Shown here: positions 3,001-17,493 of the stretch, one piece after another | Layout of the letters: each line of letters begins with the position of its first letter | Numbering within the stretch: the stretch's first letter is position 1 | Source of the DNA: a virus | Length of the DNA: 20,564 nucleotides | Direction: 5' to 3' (one strand) | IMG/VR virus record: IMGVR_UViG_3300009085_000634 | Location: 1 to 20,564 of that record | Position numbers and translations under genes: made by a program | Notes under the pieces: generated by a model | Told to the model about the DNA's origin: nothing | The model's database searches: none | Seen by the model: only the letters and a program-made list of their open reading frames with translations

Positions 3001-6000
3001 CACGAGGACTACATCGCTCGTGCGTGGAACTACATCAGCGGGCCGACGCCGAAGGAGTTCCAGAAGGCGCTGGCCGAGGTGTATGGACTCACGTCGAAGG
3101 AGGCCAAGATGCACATGTCCCTCCTCGCCGCCCGAGCAGAGGCAGTGGGGATGGACCTCCACCAGTACGTTGCCACCACCTTCTCCAAGGTGCCGCAGCG
3201 GGTGTCGGGTCGCCGTGGCCTCCCCGGCGGGGCGCTCTTCCAGACGGCCAAGGAGACCTTCGTCGCGCGCGGGATCCCCATCGAGGAGGTTGACTCGCCT
3301 CGCGTGCTGGATGTCCGCGCCGGGATGGAGCGGTACCTGCCGAAAGGGACGGATGTGGACTTCGGCGTGGGCGGCAAGGGCCGAGGCTCGGCCATCGCAC
3401 TCCAGCGCGGCATCGATCAGGGTGCAGAGGCACTCGCCCCCAAGGTGGGGTCTTTCCCGATCATGCGTGGGGGCAAGCAGGTGGGCCATATCGGGCCGAC
3501 CGACATCCCCGGCTGGAAGCAGTCCATCGTCAACACGCTGGGCATCGAGGAGGCCCGAGAGGCTGGCCTTTGGTACCACGAGATGGCCACTACATTCCTC
3601 GCGATTACCGACGGCATGAGTTCAGAGCAACTCTTCATCGTGCTGGGCAAGCAGGTGGACGAGATCGCCCCTCGCGCCGGGTTCACGCTGGAGCAGACGC
3701 TGCGGCAGGAGGCCGCATCGAAGATGCTCGTGGCGTGGGGCCTGAGTCAGTTGAACACCTCCCCGTCCGCTGGGTTCGCCAACCTCCTGCGGCTGATCGA
3801 TGACATCGGCTTCGGCGCCCGCCCCGGCGGGAAGTCGTGGGGCCTCAACTCCGCGAACCTGAGCCGCATCATCCGCGACGGCGAGGCCGCTTCCCAGCAG
3901 AAGGTGGGGGAGAAGTTGTTCGACTTCCTCGACTCCATCCGGCTTGCGTCACTCCGCAACTTCAAGTCCCACCTCGGGGACACGCGGATGCCCGCCGCCG
4001 GGGACATCTGGGCTGCCCGGGATGTCGGCTTCGTGGATCAGGCTACGCTCGCCCGGTTCGCCAAGACTGAGGGCGTGGATGTTGGGGAAGCGGCCCGGCG
4101 GCTCGGCGTCATCTCCCGCAAGGATCCGCGCGTCATGGTCCGTGAGACCTACACGACCAAGGGCGGGAAGACCCGGACCCGGCTCGTCACCGACAACGCC
4201 GCGTACGACAGGCTGGTGAAGGAGGAGGGCCTTCAGCCCGTGTTCGTCAGCGTGTCGGACAACATGTACGAGTACATCGTGCAGTTCTACAACGATGCTG
4301 CTGGACACCTGAACGCCGAAGCCTTCCTTGGGCGCACCGACTGGACCGCCGCCGATGCTCAGGCCATGGGCTGGGTGCGGGCGCAGAAGTCCTTCGGCAT
4401 CAACTCCGACAATCCGGTGGCCGTCTTCATGTCGAACTCCCGGCAGGTGTCCTACGAGATCAAGGCTGGCATCGACACCCGGTATGCCGAGATCCTCCCC
4501 CCGTGGGACGAACTCCCCGAGGTCACCCAGCGCGCGATCATGGACGACTGGGATGCCTACATCGGGCCGAAGGTCGAGAGCATGACTGGGGTCAAGATCC
4601 TCTCCAAGGTCCGTGGCTCTGGCGGCTGGATGGAGGAGGGATCCCCCACCTTCACCAAGAATGTGATGCTGGAGGTGCTGGGCACCGAGGACCAGATCCA
4701 AGACGCCATCGATGTGATGGCGTACCTCTCCCAGCAGAATGCCATCTTCGCCGTGAAGCCCGTTGGGGCTTCGGTCGCTGACCCCAACAAGGGCCACTTC
4801 TGGGCCGTTGACATCATCCCCGACAGGGTGCTGACCGAGGCTGAGGCCGAGGCGATGGCCCTCAAGGCGGCTGAGTCGAGCAGCCTCTTCGGTGGTGGTC
4901 AGAGCATCTTCAGGGCCGACGACGGTCGCCTCGGCGTGAGGGCAATGTTCTTCCCCCGCGAGTGGACGACGACCAAGAAGGAACTCTTCACGGCCTTCCA
5001 CCCGGACAGCGAGTTCGATGAACTTGCTGCGAGTCTGGGTGGTGGGGTCAAGTTCGTCAGGCGCGTGGTATCTTCAGTTGCCGCAGGTGGCGGTGATAGC
5101 AACTTCAAGGAGGGCGAAGGTGGAGCAGCCATTCTCCAGTCTCTTTCTGGACGAGGTCGAGGCGCCCTCGCAGAGCAGTTGGAGCGTGAACACGGGTTCG
5201 ATGCGTTCGCGCATCTCGATGACCTCTACCAGCGACACGCCCCCGAGGTCTACGAGCGACACCGACTCCTCCGTGAGTCCCGCCTCGCTGGAGCCGCCGA
5301 CCCCGATGATCTCGGAGACCCCAACACCCTCTACCAACTTGCCGACGACATCACCGGAGATGACCCCCGAGTTGTCCGAGCCATCGACGCCTATCGAGCA
5401 GCCGATGCCCGACTCGATGATCTCCTCCGAACCCGAGATGAACTTCTAGACGCTGGGGACACGGCGGGGGCACGAAGCCTCAAGCCCCAGATCGCTGAGG
5501 CTCGCCTCGCCGCTGAGGCCACGCTCGCTGACGGGATCCGCACCCGGCTCGGCAGCCTTGAGGACACCCTCTTCCAGTTGGACGAGACTGGCTCGTGGGC
5601 CGACGAGTGGGAAGAGTCGGGCATCGATGTCATCAAGTACGAGCATGCCGCCAAGGTCATGGGCATGGAGTTCCGCAAGGAAGGGCGGGGCTTCCGGCTC
5701 GCGCTCCCAGATGGGGGCGCCGTCGAGGGCGGAAGCAGGGTCGCTGGCTATGTCTCGTTCCCGCGACCGGGGTACGGCGATTGGGCCTTCTACTCCGTGG
5801 ACGACTACGGGATGGTCGTGGGCAAGACGATCAGCGTGGCCGACGAAGCAGCCGCCAAGGAGGCGATGCTTGATCGTGGGGCCAAGGCTCTGGGCAGGGT
5901 GGCCGACGACGAGTTCATTGCCGATGTCTACCGCCCCGACATCTACCAGCACACCTCCAAGGACAACATGGCCGAGGCGCTGAAGGCCCAGTCCATGCCC

Positions 6001-7437
6001 GAGGCCCGGGTGGTCAAGAAGGGGGCCTACCCCGAGTTGGCCGTCGCCCGTGGCAGGGCACCGGATGTGGCCCCAAACCGGCAGGTGAAGCGGCGTGCCG
6101 ACATCACCCCGGAGGAGGAGGCGTCGTATCAGGCGTACGGCAAGGCCGACCCCGACTCCCTCTGCCCCGCCATCGGCTACTCCTCGTATGTTGAGGAGTT
6201 CACCGGGTGCCAGCATCCCAAGGGGCACACCGGCTCCCATGTGTGGCACCACTCCCCCGGCGGCAGCGTGAAGGCTGAGCGGTGGGATGTGTCGCTCACC
6301 GTCGAGCAGTACAAGGAGTTCATGCGCGCGCGAGGCATCGACCTCCAGATGACCGGGGGCGCCCGCCCTGCGATCCGGGGCGCCGCCTCGTTCGGGGCGG
6401 ACGGGCGTGCCGTCATCTACGCCACGAGCAAGGCGAACCGGACCACGGCCCTCCACGAGTTGGCCCATGTCTTTGAGCGCGACCTCGACCCGTCCCTCCG
6501 CTCCATCGTGCTGGACGAGTTCGGCAAGGAGGGCGGGGACGCCACGGCTTGGTCCCGCGAGACCAGCGAGTGGTTCGCGGACGGGTTCAACCGCTACCTC
6601 GCTACCCGTCAGGCCCCGACCCTGCGGCTCCGCAACGCCTTCAACTTCTTCGGGAAGTGGCTGAAGCGGATCCTCAAGCAGGGCAAGCAGGGGCCGCAGC
6701 CGATCAGCGACGAGATGGCCAAGGTCTACGACGAACTCCTGACCCTCAAGGTGGACGCTGCCGCCCCGTTCGATGTCGAGGCCGAGACCTTCTGGCAAGC
6801 GAGCATCGAGGCTGCACGTCGCGCCGAGGACGAGGCGTACACCACCCAGTACTTCCGCCGAGGGCGCTCGTGGCTGGAGCGGTCGGCTAACCACCCGTAC
6901 CTCGGCTACTACCCCGTGTCCTACTACTGGGGCAAGATCCTCCCAGAGATGGTGCGGTTCCTGATGATCTCCCCGTTCGGGGTCGAGTTCCCCATGGGTG
7001 GGCTGGCGGCTGCCAACAAGGTGTGGTCGTCCGTCGCCCAGCAGCGCGAGTTCGACCCTGAGTTCAGGGAGTACATGGAGGAGAACAAAGACGCCTTCCG
7101 CGCGTGGTCGATGCTCATCCCGGGCACGCCGTGGGAACTCCCGGTCAACGCCTCGCTGCCCCTGCGGCGGCTGGCTCAGGCCGATCAGGAGAACCGGCTG
7201 CGGCAGGAGCGGGGGCAGGACCAGTTGCCCGTTGCCTACGGCAAGATCGCGGAGGATGTGACTGGCTACCTCGGGCTGGGGCCGTCCATCAAGTACGGCT
7301 CCCAGATGCTGGGGTTCACGACCGACTCGGCCACCTCGATGCTCAGTGGGGCCTACGACGACCTGAGTGATGTCTTCGCCGGGAACCCACAGGAACCCAC
7401 TGAGGGACCGTTCATCCCACAGGCCGGAGTGCCGTGA
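1..7437 (+). CDS. Giant multidomain virion-associated (polyvalent/ejection-type) protein with zincin domain, 5' partial
   Basis: The frame is open from the first base to a TGA at 7435-7437, giving 2,478 residues; an internal Met at 130 has no ribosome binding site, so the true start is upstream of the window. Numbering from base 1, a zincin-type HELAH motif lies at residues 2152-2156 (nt 6454-6468), with a likely third zinc ligand, Glu2190, in SEWFAD. Just before it is a C2055/C2070/H2076/H2080 cluster of the C..C..GHxGxH type, probably a small zinc knuckle. Three short L[FY]Q motifs (residues 1079, 1777, 1857) lie in low-complexity linkers. Hydrophobic or amphipathic stretches occur near nt 515-590 and 2290-2390. 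Giant proteins with an embedded metallopeptidase are known among phage polyvalent proteins, and the place before scaffold and capsid genes is where MuF-type proteins often sit. Packaging into the head and ejection are inferred. I saw no convincing RNA polymerase motifs. Nucleotides 5120-5449 appear to encode a second protein as well. Confidence 0.7.
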   Translation, partial: APTNIATEIINLPAVPKPSDPATTLGWFGVFADLISDPNSEKSMKFAGELVKDPLAAARIINEFARQNWDEGVKSGAVPRVLQDLGPSSGFGDSMLKMLASVALPEQLVQRTVAGGFMGGEDRIGALERLEAAGVDVPAEVKEVYEQYKSGELSRDEALDEITRSNMGYSDNPLGNFALSVLFDPFLVVGGGASTAAKVATKTMREAGALFAGALTKDAFQDLLSKATANGTLTKMRGDVNAAVLRQAKAEGGLYDREIAEAMRQGAGPVARTVTGIRSNPVMSPMFDIVQKINNPLEFFGRDDAARFTNGYLSQEMTQGGVRAFGEIPVENVLRGVERAGVDIGPLQRNAGVFFANMGRVWQGRLLAADILRTQKVLKMTPNEAVAARLAGQGQGISGRMQAFVDSVRPQFFGQGGKMSQEEALKRARTQAAERLGEMYGRSADDFLDMTKGMDVNELGFVDGAYFGHVITTFNAAKAAAIRAAGDDPGMLKRLAIIGPRTLTAEKGKVVLKAIKDKDYGAVRAAVQAYDELGYNFAETSLDDKALAKAVRGFIEGASDRLPKALDPTDDIVKLVGPEMTEWGERMSRVGYLIGFGPDEADVWRVVRDPKTGDIVGVAPWLDWASEASAAYRPGQFARIRGALFNEIRGDRIQREAKNRFIRYATQDWGISPADADRLFHAIGLAANDMNVMPRGMSGTKQWEAAKKVVLQKEIASKIGPREVAALISRAYEGKLTTVGATQKFSGAVKTEFSGMGNVVGQIAEHFYPIARFTINPFFQLQEFVEPFFLAVMRGVKPGVHLSDLDAETLNIVNNLLYEGRHLKFDQAEFASVYVWGAAASKKTFGSNTRVGNIARRVIPEKIRNKGGFSVAEAKQVAYAGQIRQLLGKEMYQAFESIRPGFFDELHRHYSVASGRALDRGEVAIRWLNEKGAAGAAGGDYQQVLARISKPADMGAQSVVELPFLRRLLDLESTADVFAAARKGTLTRDQVHDALTTYGAHEDYIARAWNYISGPTPKEFQKALAEVYGLTSKEAKMHMSLLAARAEAVGMDLHQYVATTFSKVPQRVSGRRGLPGGALFQTAKETFVARGIPIEEVDSPRVLDVRAGMERYLPKGTDVDFGVGGKGRGSAIALQRGIDQGAEALAPKVGSFPIMRGGKQVGHIGPTDIPGWKQSIVNTLGIEEAREAGLWYHEMATTFLAITDGMSSEQLFIVLGKQVDEIAPRAGFTLEQTLRQEAASKMLVAWGLSQLNTSPSAGFANLLRLIDDIGFGARPGGKSWGLNSANLSRIIRDGEAASQQKVGEKLFDFLDSIRLASLRNFKSHLGDTRMPAAGDIWAARDVGFVDQATLARFAKTEGVDVGEAARRLGVISRKDPRVMVRETYTTKGGKTRTRLVTDNAAYDRLVKEEGLQPVFVSVSDNMYEYIVQFYNDAAGHLNAEAFLGRTDWTAADAQAMGWVRAQKSFGINSDNPVAVFMSNSRQVSYEIKAGIDTRYAEILPPWDELPEVTQRAIMDDWDAYIGPKVESMTGVKILSKVRGSGGWMEEGSPTFTKNVMLEVLGTEDQIQDAIDVMAYLSQQNAIFAVKPVGASVADPNKGHFWAVDIIPDRVLTEAEAEAMALKAAESSSLFGGGQSIFRADDGRLGVRAMFFPREWTTTKKELFTAFHPDSEFDELAASLGGGVKFVRRVVSSVAAGGGDSNFKEGEGGAAILQSLSGRGRGALAEQLEREHGFDAFAHLDDLYQRHAPEVYERHRLLRESRLAGAADPDDLGDPNTLYQLADDITGDDPRVVRAIDAYRAADARLDDLLRTRDELLDAGDTAGARSLKPQIAEARLAAEATLADGIRTRLGSLEDTLFQLDETGSWADEWEESGIDVIKYEHAAKVMGMEFRKEGRGFRLALPDGGAVEGGSRVAGYVSFPRPGYGDWAFYSVDDYGMVVGKTISVADEAAAKEAMLDRGAKALGRVADDEFIADVYRPDIYQHTSKDNMAEALKAQSMPEARVVKKGAYPELAVARGRAPDVAPNRQVKRRADITPEEEASYQAYGKADPDSLCPAIGYSSYVEEFTGCQHPKGHTGSHVWHHSPGGSVKAERWDVSLTVEQYKEFMRARGIDLQMTGGARPAIRGAASFGADGRAVIYATSKANRTTALHELAHVFERDLDPSLRSIVLDEFGKEGGDATAWSRETSEWFADGFNRYLATRQAPTLRLRNAFNFFGKWLKRILKQGKQGPQPISDEMAKVYDELLTLKVDAAAPFDVEAETFWQASIEAARRAEDEAYTTQYFRRGRSWLERSANHPYLGYYPVSYYWGKILPEMVRFLMISPFGVEFPMGGLAAANKVWSSVAQQREFDPEFREYMEENKDAFRAWSMLIPGTPWELPVNASLPLRRLAQADQENRLRQERGQDQLPVAYGKIAEDVTGYLGLGPSIKYGSQMLGFTTDSATSMLSGAYDDLSDVFAGNPQEPTEGPFIPQAGVP
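5066..5074 (+). promoter_or_regulatory. Possible extended -10 promoter for the embedded gene
   Basis: TGGTATCTT has the extended -10 form TGnTATCTT and would start a transcript near 5081, leaving a leader of about 40 nt before the GTG at 5120. A second candidate, TGATAGCAA (5094-5102), is too close to the ribosome binding site. No good -35 is visible. The host protein here is a Gly/Ser-rich linker, so the DNA is free to carry such signals. Weak evidence only. Confidence 0.25.
5120..5449 (+). CDS. Embedded overlapping gene: Ser/Thr/Pro/Glu-rich 109-aa protein
   Basis: A GTG at 5120 follows a strong ribosome binding site, AAGGAGGG (5107-5114), with a 5-nt spacer, and opens a 109-codon frame ending at TAG 5447-5449. 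It lies wholly within the giant gene, shifted by +1. Codon composition supports real translation: by my count third positions are G/C in 92 of 109 codons in this frame but only about 64 of 110 in the giant gene's frame, which is far more GC3-rich elsewhere. The host frame there uses CGA for 11 of 14 Arg codons, a codon it otherwise uses little. The product starts MEQPFSSLFLDEVE and continues as a low-complexity Ser, Thr, Pro, Glu, Met chain with no membrane segment, so it is probably disordered. No function is recognised. The host frame also looks functional here, because it contains one of its L[FY]Q motifs, so dual coding is more likely than an assembly error. Confidence 0.6.
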   Translation: MEQPFSSLFLDEVEAPSQSSWSVNTGSMRSRISMTSTSDTPPRSTSDTDSSVSPASLEPPTPMISETPTPSTNLPTTSPEMTPELSEPSTPIEQPMPDSMISSEPEMNF

Positions 7438-7455: not shown

Positions 7456-7469
7456 CCCCACATGTGGGG
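7456..7469 (+). repeat. Perfect 14-bp palindrome in the scaffold leader
   Basis: CCCCACATGTGGGG is a perfect palindrome between the giant gene and the scaffold start. It could be a protein binding site in DNA or a short hairpin near the 5' end of the scaffold mRNA. It contains an in-frame ATG (7462) that lacks a ribosome binding site and is not taken as the start. Confidence 0.5.
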
Positions 7470-7488
7470 TCTACAACAAGGAGAACCC

Positions 7489-8043
7489 GTGCCCGAGATC
7501 GTTGAAGGCACCTCCACCCCGGAGGCCACGGAGACCACGGAGGCTGCTGCCCCCGTCGCCGCTGAAGCCCCCCGTTCGGTCGAGGATGTCGAGGCCATCT
7601 GGCAGAAGCGGATTGCCGGGAAGGATCGCGCCCACGCCGCCGAGGTTGCGGAACTGCGCCGCCAGTTGGAGGTCAAGTCCAATACCCCTGCGCCCCCGTC
7701 GGTGAACGAGACCCCGGAGCAGCGCCGGATCAGGGAACTGGAGGAAGAGATCGCTGAGGAGCGCAAGACGCGGATCGTTGAGACCCGCAAGGCGCGCTTC
7801 CCCAAGGCGACCGAATACCTCGGAGATGCAGTCACAGCCGCAGACGAGGCAAAACTCGCCGGGCTGGAGGCTCTTCTCGCGGGCGAGGAGTCCGCTCCCG
7901 CTCCGGTGATCGCCCCCAACTCCCCACCGCGCGGTGCCCCCAAGGGCGCCAAGCCGATGGAGGAGATGACGAAGCAGGAACTTCAGGACACGCTGCGTCA
8001 GATCGGCCCGGCGTATCAGGAGTACCTGAACTCAATCCGATAA
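7489..8043 (+). CDS. Capsid scaffolding protein
   Basis: This 184-residue protein has the usual make-up of a phage scaffold: an acidic, Ala/Thr/Pro-rich N-terminus (about 1-40), a highly charged segment with heptad character (about 43-105, including the run around EQRRIRELEEEIAEERKTR), a Pro/Ala-rich linker (about 130-155), and a short helical C-terminus (about 160-184, ending EYLNSIR), the place where scaffolds commonly touch the capsid protein. It lies directly upstream of the major capsid gene, the standard position. The GTG at 7489 is chosen because AAGGAG (7478-7483) sits 5 nt upstream; the in-frame ATG at 7462 lies inside a palindrome without a ribosome binding site and would add nine residues. 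The function is from composition and position, not from a detailed family match. Confidence 0.75.
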   Translation: MPEIVEGTSTPEATETTEAAAPVAAEAPRSVEDVEAIWQKRIAGKDRAHAAEVAELRRQLEVKSNTPAPPSVNETPEQRRIRELEEEIAEERKTRIVETRKARFPKATEYLGDAVTAADEAKLAGLEALLAGEESAPAPVIAPNSPPRGAPKGAKPMEEMTKQELQDTLRQIGPAYQEYLNSIR

Positions 8044-8079: not shown

Positions 8080-9063
8080 ATGGCAACAACGGTTGGTGGC
8101 GTCACTACTGGTAGTGATGTCTATGCCGGAACTCTCGCCGGGACCACCGTCGCAGGTACTGGTGGAGTCGCGTTCTCCACCCTCAACGCCCAGATGGCTG
8201 CGGTCATCACGAACCTCGTCAAGAAGGAAGTCGTTGACATCCTTCGCGAGAAGGCCGTGATCCTTCAGGAAGGCTCGTACATCAAGGCGAGCCACGTCCC
8301 GGGCACCCTCAAGTTCGTCTACACCGCGTTCGCGGACCTCGGTGATGCCGAGGATGTGGCCGAGGGCGTGCCCCCGGTCTCCGTCCCGCTGGCGTGGGAC
8401 ACGATGGAGTTCACGGGCACCCAGAAGGCGAAGATCGTCGCGGTCTCCGACCTCGCGGAACTGCTCAACCCGCACGGTCTCTACAGCAAGGGTGCTGAGA
8501 AGATCGCGTGGAACATGGTGGACACCATGGAGAAGGTGGCTATCGCCGCGTTCTCCGGTGGCCTCACCCCGGCTGCGGCTCAGGCCACGGTCGCGGAGAA
8601 CCTGATCGCGCAGCGCCTCGTGATGAAGACGGCGCTCGTGCCCGAGTTCCCCGAGGGTGGGTACAAGGTCTTCATCAACCCGACTGATCTGGCGGCGGTT
8701 CAGGCCGACACCTCCTCGCTCGGGTATCAGGAGTCCATCAAGTACAAGGACTACATGCCGCTCGCCAATGGCGAGGTCGGCAGGTTCCGTGGTCTTCGCT
8801 TCATCGAGACCACGCGTGTCACCGCTGGTGATGCGGTCCTCTTCGGCCCGGAGTTCTTCGCTTGGGGCGACTACCAGACGGCACAGGTCTACCGTGTCGC
8901 GGCTGGTGGCGACCACGCGGACCCGCTCGCCCAGCGCAGCCTCGTCGGCTGGAAGGGCATGTTCGGCGCCACGGACATCGAGTTCCCGGCGATGAACATC
9001 ACGGCTGGCCCGAACCCGGAGCAGATCCGGTACCTCGTGGCTGACCTCGCGACGACTGCCTAG
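8080..9063 (+). CDS. Major capsid protein, N4-gp56-like (HK97 fold)
   Basis: The product is 327 residues and follows the scaffold. The N-terminus (1-35) is Gly/Thr-rich. A helix (about 36-60) leads to ILQEGSYIKASHVPGTLKF, then an AEGVPPVSVPL stretch (about 94-104) and the conserved-looking KIVAVSDLAELL (118-129). The C-terminal half has VFINPTDLAAVQ (197-208) and NGEVGRFRGLRFIETTRV (230-247), which matches the pattern I know from the N4-gp56 family of capsid proteins (a Gly-E-[IV]-G-x-[IFV]-x-G-[VL]-[RK]-[FI] run followed by ETxxV). That family adopts the HK97 fold. The ATG at 8080 has AAAGGA (8064-8069) upstream. Hairpins flank the gene on both sides, fitting a highly expressed transcript. 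Confidence 0.85.
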   Translation: MATTVGGVTTGSDVYAGTLAGTTVAGTGGVAFSTLNAQMAAVITNLVKKEVVDILREKAVILQEGSYIKASHVPGTLKFVYTAFADLGDAEDVAEGVPPVSVPLAWDTMEFTGTQKAKIVAVSDLAELLNPHGLYSKGAEKIAWNMVDTMEKVAIAAFSGGLTPAAAQATVAENLIAQRLVMKTALVPEFPEGGYKVFINPTDLAAVQADTSSLGYQESIKYKDYMPLANGEVGRFRGLRFIETTRVTAGDAVLFGPEFFAWGDYQTAQVYRVAAGGDHADPLAQRSLVGWKGMFGATDIEFPAMNITAGPNPEQIRYLVADLATTA

Positions 9064-16432: not shown

Positions 16433-16843
16433 ATGATGCCGCAGGACACGGAGATGACACCAATCCCCGGACAGCCACTCTCTTGGCGAGATGTCTACCG
16501 CGCCGTAACCGAGAGCGAGGTCCGCATCGTGGCGTCGATCAACGCAGCCGTGACCCCCCTCAACGCGAGCGTGGTTGATCACGAGTCGCGCATCCGTGAG
16601 ATCGAGCGGCTGGGGTGCCCACAGGCAAGGCAGTTCGCGGGGAAGATGGATGGTATCGACGCCAAGGTAACGGCCCTCCACCTACGGGTGGACACCGTGG
16701 AGAAGGACGATGTCGCCCTCATGGCCCGGGAGAAGGGCATCCTCGCCACCCTCTCGTCCGCCCAGAAAGTCATTGTCCTTCTGGGCGCGATCTTGGCCGC
16801 TGCCTACACCATGTCCAACATCATCGACAAGGTTGCCTCCTGA
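16433..16843 (+). CDS. Holin candidate (coiled coil plus one C-terminal membrane segment)
   Basis: The 136-residue protein has an N-terminal polar region (1-30), two helical, heptad-like stretches (about 26-60 and 74-100), and a single hydrophobic segment near the end (about 113-131, VIVLLGAILAAAYTMSNII) followed by DKVAS. This one-TM, coiled-coil layout resembles XhlA-type phage lysis proteins and other small holins. Its position directly before a predicted cell-wall peptidase, with stop and start overlapping (TGATG at 16841-16845), supports a lysis role. Two adjacent ATGs (16433, 16436) could serve as start; neither has a ribosome binding site, and a -10 box ends 6 nt before the first, so leaderless translation is likely. 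A membrane-anchored spanin or a tail-associated protein cannot be ruled out. Confidence 0.55.
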   Translation: MMPQDTEMTPIPGQPLSWRDVYRAVTESEVRIVASINAAVTPLNASVVDHESRIREIERLGCPQARQFAGKMDGIDAKVTALHLRVDTVEKDDVALMAREKGILATLSSAQKVIVLLGAILAAAYTMSNIIDKVAS

Positions 16844-17493
16844 TGGCGCTTCCCGGTGTGTTCAATCAGGTCTCGTGGCCCGGGGTGGGCGACGTTGACG
16901 ACTGTCAGGTGCTGTCGGCCTTCTGGACGATGGTGGCCACCGGCTGGTCTACGAAGGCTGGCCTTCCCACCGTCAGCAAGTTCCGCTACGAGGCGGGTAA
17001 CCCCGACGACCCCGGGCGCAGCGACGGGCTGAACAACACCGAGTCCCTGCGTGCCATCAACCAGATCTGGCCCACGGCTGGGGCGCTCTCGTACGTCGGC
17101 GGGATCGAGGGGTTCAAAGCCCATCTCCGCGCCGGGAAGATCGCGTCGGTCAGCGTGAAGTCCTCGCTGCTCCCGGCTCGTCTGCGGTTCGGGTTCTTGG
17201 GGCTGCATCAGATCGCCGTCGCGTTCAACGGCACGAACGTCAAGGTGATGAACCCGCTCGACGCCATGGGGGATCCACCCATGACGGCAACGTGGGCAGA
17301 GGTTCGGGTCGCGGCGTACGGCGTCTACAACGACGGCAAGGTCCACGCCATCGTCGTCCCGCCCAAGCCCGCCGACCCCACCATCGCCCTGAAGGCCGAG
17401 ATCGCTGCGCTCAAGACGAAGGTCTCCTCGCAGCAGACGACCATCGACGCGCTCACGGCGAAGATCACGGCGGCTCGTAGCGCCCTCCTGTAA
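16843..17493 (+). CDS. Putative endolysin: C39-like (papain-fold) cysteine peptidase
   Basis: The 216-residue protein opens with WPGVGDVDDCQVLSAFWTM, where Cys21 (nt 16903-16905) begins a helix as the nucleophile of a papain-like fold. The middle contains LLPARLRFGFLGLHQIAVAF with His122, then VKVMNPLD with Asn137, giving a plausible Cys-His-Asn/Asp triad. Residues about 178-216 are a coiled-coil-like tail (ALKAEIAALKTKVSSQQTTID...). There is no recognisable cell-wall binding domain. C39-like peptidase domains occur in endolysins of phages of actinobacteria, and the gene directly follows the holin candidate with an overlapping stop/start. Cleavage of peptidoglycan cross-links is inferred; a virion maturation protease is a possible alternative. 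The ATG at 16843 is chosen over an in-frame ATG at 16615, which would overlap most of the preceding gene. Confidence 0.6.
   Translation: MALPGVFNQVSWPGVGDVDDCQVLSAFWTMVATGWSTKAGLPTVSKFRYEAGNPDDPGRSDGLNNTESLRAINQIWPTAGALSYVGGIEGFKAHLRAGKIASVSVKSSLLPARLRFGFLGLHQIAVAFNGTNVKVMNPLDAMGDPPMTATWAEVRVAAYGVYNDGKVHAIVVPPKPADPTIALKAEIAALKTKVSSQQTTIDALTAKITAARSALL

Follow-up and report, generated by a model that had tools for sequence, protein, structure and literature searches.

In phage lambda, the o-spanin gene Rz1 is nested in Rz: a complete small gene with its own start and a Pro-rich product is read in a different frame of the larger gene (PMC5295617, PMC6139136). In ssRNA phages, embedded lysis genes are likewise small and overprinted on other phage genes; they bring about lysis and show rapid de novo evolution (PMC7693330). 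In E. coli, overprinted orphan genes (e.g. PMC4683798) encode a de novo protein in the alternative frame of an existing gene. In the sections of the account by Iyer et al. (2017, PMC5512222) available to us, zincin-like domains are the commonest part of polyvalent proteins, and these proteins are injected together with the DNA. The locus described here resembles each of these systems in part. It consists of a small, complete ORF with its own start and a Pro-rich product, lying out of frame within a larger phage gene. The giant host proteins of this family recall polyvalent proteins through their place by the head genes, an HExxH motif and, in relatives, a GNAT-like part and possibly an ART-like part. 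No nested gene is mentioned in the available sections on polyvalent proteins (PMC5512222).

The window, i.e. the whole stretch of DNA that was analysed, is a virus record of 20,564 bases from an uncultivated tailed phage, with a GC content of ~65%. Its features are collected in Table 1; the giant ORF sits directly 5′ of a scaffold-like gene, which is followed by the major capsid gene. Elsewhere in the window, the first part of the ORF at 16615-17493 overlaps the gene at 16433-16843 and has an abnormal third-position GC content (GC3) of 0.35; the true start of this ORF is probably the ATG near 16843.

Table 1. Features of the giant gene, the nested ORF and their neighbourhood in the window
Feature	Position	Strand	Remarks
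Giant host gene, polyvalent-like; 2478 aa shown, 5′ end lost at contig end	1..7437	+	Upstream of capsid gene
Stretch before the GTG; +1 frame also open (ATG 5018), host GC3 already low	5018..5119	+	
Shine-Dalgarno site AAGGAGGG, within host codons K-E-G	5107..5114	+	5 nt before GTG 5120
Nested gene (very probable) in +1 frame of giant gene; GTG start, 109 codons, TAG stop 5447-5449	5120..5449	+	
W-S-V motif codons of nested product	5180..5188	+	Same host-alignment column in 21–22 of 22 loci
HELAH, HExxH zincin-like metallopeptidase motif of giant protein, 3′ of nested gene	6454..6468	+	
Acidic protein gene between giant and capsid genes, putatively scaffold-like	7462..8043	+	From position and composition
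Major capsid protein gene	8080..9063	+	PHROG major head protein; query for relatives

A first-pass annotation made from the sequence alone had noticed a GTG behind a strong ribosome binding site with a 5-nt spacer, opening a 109-codon frame in the +1 phase of the giant gene. All of these elements were found as described, with CGAAG as the spacer between AAGGAGGG and the GTG. The same annotation had put GC3 at about 84% in the nested frame and about 58% in the giant frame; we measured 84.5% and 58.2% over the ORF, respectively. The former value is not independent evidence because these are the same bases as host GC1, and it is the fall of host GC3 that constitutes the real signal. The giant gene is GC3-rich elsewhere, as had been stated (mean of 84% gene-wide), with the dip at the ORF being the sole strong one, and the reported switch of Arg codons to CGA was recovered as well: CGA accounts for 11 of 14 Arg codons in the ORF region compared with 12 of 164 in the rest of the giant gene. 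In the window this dip spans the sequence from about 5018, ~100 nt ahead of the GTG, to the vicinity of the nested stop. The in-frame ATG at 5018 is an alternative start that would yield a product of 143 aa. In the relative L002, however, a +1 stop lies 15 nt before the ATG of its own nested ORF, an ATG located two codons from the position of the window GTG. GTG 5120 is favoured over ATG 5018 for this reason, and the sequence between them is probably excluded from the nested product. Low GC3 begins ahead of the nested start in both the window and L002.

Searches of viral and genome contigs with segments of the giant protein alone yielded no relatives. A search with the capsid protein led to L002, L003 and L004, a search with the capsid alignment to 31 loci and a search with an alignment of the giant C-terminus to 80 loci. 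The giant protein of L002 is 48% identical to that of the window, and its gene has a +1-phase ORF in the homologous position (4026-4316); the two nested products can be aligned (APSQSSWSVNT in the window, APSQTHWNVST in L002). As the family set we used 28 non-duplicate giant genes with a +1-phase ORF behind a Shine-Dalgarno-like site. The IMG/VR lineage L002-L105 represents a large uncultivated phage group with giant proteins of ~1650-3050 residues encoded upstream of the capsid gene and with almost no relative among GenBank phage records. Among GenBank phages, a DNA search with the window gave no match, a protein search gave weak matches to the HExxH region only and no close relative, and the giant protein of L008 was without a match. 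Two further observations were made in these genomes. In L002 (4250-4850) the giant protein carries an insert of ~150 residues directly behind the nested gene, with low GC3 and no matching +1 ORF, which reads like a swapped-in effector-type domain. In L071 (4247-4414) and L082 (1748-1945) the giant gene contains another +1-phase ORF of a different type, which coincides with a GC3 dip of its own. The products of this second type begin with MDPKT and end with EQAVDMVV plus an Arg-rich tail, and in L082, which has both types, an AAGGAG site lies 5′ of it; it is probably another nested gene.

On comparative sequence evidence we conclude that 5120-5449 is very probably a protein-coding gene overprinted on the giant gene in the +1 frame. 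A complete ORF lies in a host frame that is maintained and alignable, with conserved initiation signals and with selection on the second frame. The earlier proposal that two proteins are read from the same DNA is thereby supported by the edges of the GC3 dip, the Shine-Dalgarno sites, a Trp column and shuffle tests. The relatives were checked for breaks in the +1 frame, and none was present within the ORF in any of the 28 loci; start, Shine-Dalgarno site and Trp motif recur. AAGGAGG precedes GTG in the window, GGAGGTGA precedes ATG in L007, AAGAAGGAG precedes TTG in L012, L022, L023 and L085, and GGAGG precedes ATG in L005, L008, L049, L054 and L056. We counted Shine-Dalgarno matches before +1 starts located within 30 codons upstream of the motif Trp in 22 loci: matches of at least 5 bases were present in 19 of the 22, versus 4.1% at control places in the same genes, and matches of at least 4 bases in 22 of 22, versus 13.9%. 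These loci share ancestry, which makes formal p-values for the recurrence too small, but the effect is large. The nested products of 22 loci carry an N-terminal W-[STNQHI]-[VIMG] motif, mostly with V or I in third place, for example W-N-V in L002 and W-[ST]-V in L007, L008, L011 and L057; a related N-terminus without Trp occurs in L005, L054, L056 and L061. When the host proteins alone were aligned, with random flanks, the Trp codon fell into one column in 22, 21 and 22 of the 22 loci (three trials). The host residue in this column is Leu, Val or Met, and its codon is xTG in 22/22 loci, followed by the G that TGG needs. From codon usage the chance of xTG throughout is ~5e-6, for loci that were listed for having the motif.

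The position of the nested gene relative to the giant protein is largely constant. In 22 of 26 mapped loci (the motif positions of L039, L042, L045 and L047 were left out) the motif lies 70-133 residues before the HExxH of the giant protein, whereas 425-666 residues separate the two in the window, L002, L046 and L049; in the window and L002, further host sequence lies between the nested gene and HExxH. The HExxH motif is present in every giant protein carrying the nested gene. Judged from this motif, a zincin-like domain would fit polyvalent proteins; in Pfam searches of the giant proteins no model scored above the cut-off. The giant C-terminus gave a poor structure prediction of low confidence, and a fold search with it was without a match. 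A GNAT acetyltransferase-like region (residues 1837-1915 of the L003 giant protein) scored just below the Pfam cut-off, and the L054 giant protein showed a weak ADP-ribosyltransferase match. Where domains of the giant proteins appear to adjoin, an L-[YF]-Q motif recurs (LYQLAD, LFQRTPGG, LFQTAKE), at residues ~1778 (LYQ) and ~1858 (LFQ) in the window and before the HExxH region in L008, L057 and L003; these could be processing sites or linker motifs. In a tree of the giant C-terminus, several well-supported clades carry the nested gene and others lack it, with absence being less secure in low-GC members. Its presence requires 9 changes on the tree, compared with 19.5 for shuffled labels. The nested gene is thus either old with losses or was gained a few times, and it is not universal in the family.

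The window product had been described as Ser/Thr/Pro/Glu-rich and probably disordered, and we agree: it consists to 62% of these four residues, has a net charge of -13, lacks Cys and is predicted to be unstructured. Family products span ~70-155 aa with about 50-65% S+T+P+E; most are acidic, a few are near neutral, and hydrophobic content is low (8-22%). The Ser/Thr part of this composition is the default of the +1 frame throughout the giant genes. Traits that differ from the default are an enrichment of Glu, Asp, Gln and Pro, low Arg and the absence of Cys. AlphaFold2 predictions for 25 members gave no secondary structure (mean pLDDT 68, pTM 0.16). The nested product matched neither Pfam nor PHROGs, and that of L057 had no match in GenBank phages. 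A profile HMM built from the L007, L008, L011 and L057 products finds L010 and misses the window product; across clades the products are linked by phase, host position, Shine-Dalgarno site, short motif and composition rather than by sequence statistics. The nested products appear to form a new protein family, undescribed in the libraries and literature searched; the initial impression that there is no described counterpart holds for Pfam, PHROGs and this literature, which was mostly of the kind available without subscription.

The product would be a protein of ~100 residues, acidic, Pro-rich, free of Cys and probably disordered, with a short N-terminal motif of the W-[ST]-V type. It would be made in cis in the middle of the giant message, usually just before the HExxH domain, and could act on or with the giant protein, which would be of the virion or ejection type. 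As the product is made in cis and near HExxH, we tentatively suggest, from its position and cis synthesis, that it partners the giant protein in loading or assembly, or restrains its metallopeptidase-like domain, a role we rate as possible and no higher. In a more specific and more doubtful version, a disordered Trp-anchored peptide would keep the neighbouring metallopeptidase domain inactive, or guide the giant protein into the head, until ejection. A real nested gene could instead act on the host cell and not with the giant protein, for example as an anti-host or anti-defence factor, which is still on the unlikely side when taken singly. Small acidic disordered proteins are common among inhibitors. 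Polyvalent proteins, as far as the available sections of their description go, serve phage-host conflict (PMC5512222), which is in line with such an action. The missing PHROGs or Pfam match argues against it, and so does the fixed site by the HExxH domain, which fits a partner of the giant protein better, although this position may be merely inherited. Overall, an independent anti-host role is about as likely as one as partner, loader or restraint.

A lysis protein like Rz1 would share the architecture, a small Pro-rich protein wholly inside another gene in a different frame, and lysis is a frequent function of nested phage genes (PMC6139136, PMC7693330). However, the 28 products contain 0 Cys and therefore no lipobox, their hydrophobic content of 8-22% leaves no obvious membrane segment, and the location is a giant gene by the capsid gene, outside any lysis cassette; we regard this function as very improbable.

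Could the ORF be an accident of codon usage? The region would then be a low-GC3 linker, horizontally acquired or weakly selected, and both the open +1 frame and the S/T/P richness would follow from the host codons. In fact the ORF region is an unevenly conserved linker, long, S/T-rich +1 frames are frequent in these GC-rich genes, and in L002 low GC3 reaches beyond the nested ORF. Against this stand the fixed W column and the recurring Shine-Dalgarno sites and starts as well as the shape of the dip. For the majority of high-GC members, GC3 of the giant gene dips most strongly at a +1 ORF. The GC3 minimum falls inside a +1 open run of at least 90 codons in 38 of 52 genes (expected 17.6) and inside +2 runs in 14 of the 52 (expected 26.1). 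Anchored at the nested start, which was picked by Shine-Dalgarno site and motif and hence independently of GC3 and folding, mean host GC3 of the 28 loci falls from 0.86 (40-20 codons upstream) through 0.79 (final 20 codons upstream) to 0.54 (first 20 codons inside). With the stop as anchor it climbs from 0.66 immediately ahead of the stop to 0.86 directly beyond it, so that the dip has sharp edges at both ends; GC1 and GC2 go up together inside the nested ORF. Codon order contributes beyond codon content: the 28 products (2,889 residues) contain 0 Cys and 0 stops, while shuffling the order of the same codons with the host protein kept (300 shuffles) gave 7-24 Cys and 8-26 stops and left the +1 frame open in at most 20 of 28 loci. 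Gene-wide codon usage would give 21 Glu and 437 Arg in these products, where the actual numbers are 277 and 110, respectively.

The first-pass annotation had also anticipated reduced synonymous variation of the host frame over the ORF, and this was supported by one type of measurement and in part by another. With synonymous codon shuffling, similarity in the +1 frame reached z ≥ 3.2 in 19 of 23 locus pairs (maximum 7.6) and in 18 of 23 it was higher than in any control window of that pair; for the window and L002, z was 3.29, with 2.63 for the best control window. Plain codon identity of this pair showed no excess (0.52 vs 0.55) because the two have diverged and codon bias differs inside the dip. 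Plain 4-fold divergence was lower inside the ORF in some close pairs only: 3/65 inside vs 159/911 outside for L006/L008 (p 0.005), 6/41 vs 227/701 for L054/L056 (p 0.016) and 1/64 vs 101/1167 for L054/L055 (p 0.057), with no difference in three further pairs. It is a weak line of evidence since the low-divergence stretch of L006/L008 extends beyond the ORF on both sides. Taken with the shuffle results, a mere codon-usage effect seems to us hardly credible.

A programmed ribosomal frameshift would let ribosomes slip into the +1 frame and produce a truncated giant protein with an S/T/P/E-rich tail. The ORF is on the same strand in phase +1, and the window has 180 nt without a +1 stop ahead of the GTG, as such a slip would demand. 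In many loci, however, +1 stops are found just 12-60 nt upstream of the start (L011, L002, L036, L085, L070, L012, L061, L006 and L026), and strong Shine-Dalgarno sites lie ahead of the start codons. GC3 shifts at the start codon, where the mRNA is also least folded: the mean 50-nt folding energy of the 28 loci is weakest at the nested start with -10.5 kcal/mol, versus ~-15.6 kcal/mol upstream. Frameshifting is accordingly given very little weight here. Translation of the nested gene would rather start independently on the giant mRNA, from the Shine-Dalgarno site and GTG of the nested gene itself. A sequencing indel as the source of the +1 ORF was rejected, with the host frame being alignable through the region in relatives.

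The nested gene adds an unannotated protein family common to many environmental phages; standard gene callers would tend to miss it, as a longer ORF encloses it entirely. As a nested gene of double-stranded DNA phages, it can be argued for from comparative sequence data alone and is conserved over deep divergence. The 28 loci offer a test set for the co-evolution of two proteins on one stretch of DNA, and the gene offers a concrete way into the question of how giant proteins of the polyvalent type are produced or packaged. If the product is indeed a partner made in cis, it would be a phage regulator encoded within the message of the protein under its control.

In comparison with the systems introduced above, the giant protein differs from described polyvalent proteins (PMC5512222) in that it passed no curated Pfam cut-off. 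Unlike Rz1 in Rz (PMC5295617, PMC6139136), the nested gene encodes neither a lipobox nor Cys and lies outside a lysis cassette, in a giant head-region gene of at least 2478 codons. In contrast to the lysis genes of ssRNA phages (PMC7693330), its product is acidic and probably disordered, and despite deep divergence the gene has stayed at a single site of its host gene. Whereas the E. coli orphan case (PMC4683798) is recent, the gene described here recurs in several deep phage clades. The architecture of an overprinted nested gene is already known; the protein family that it encodes here appears to be new.
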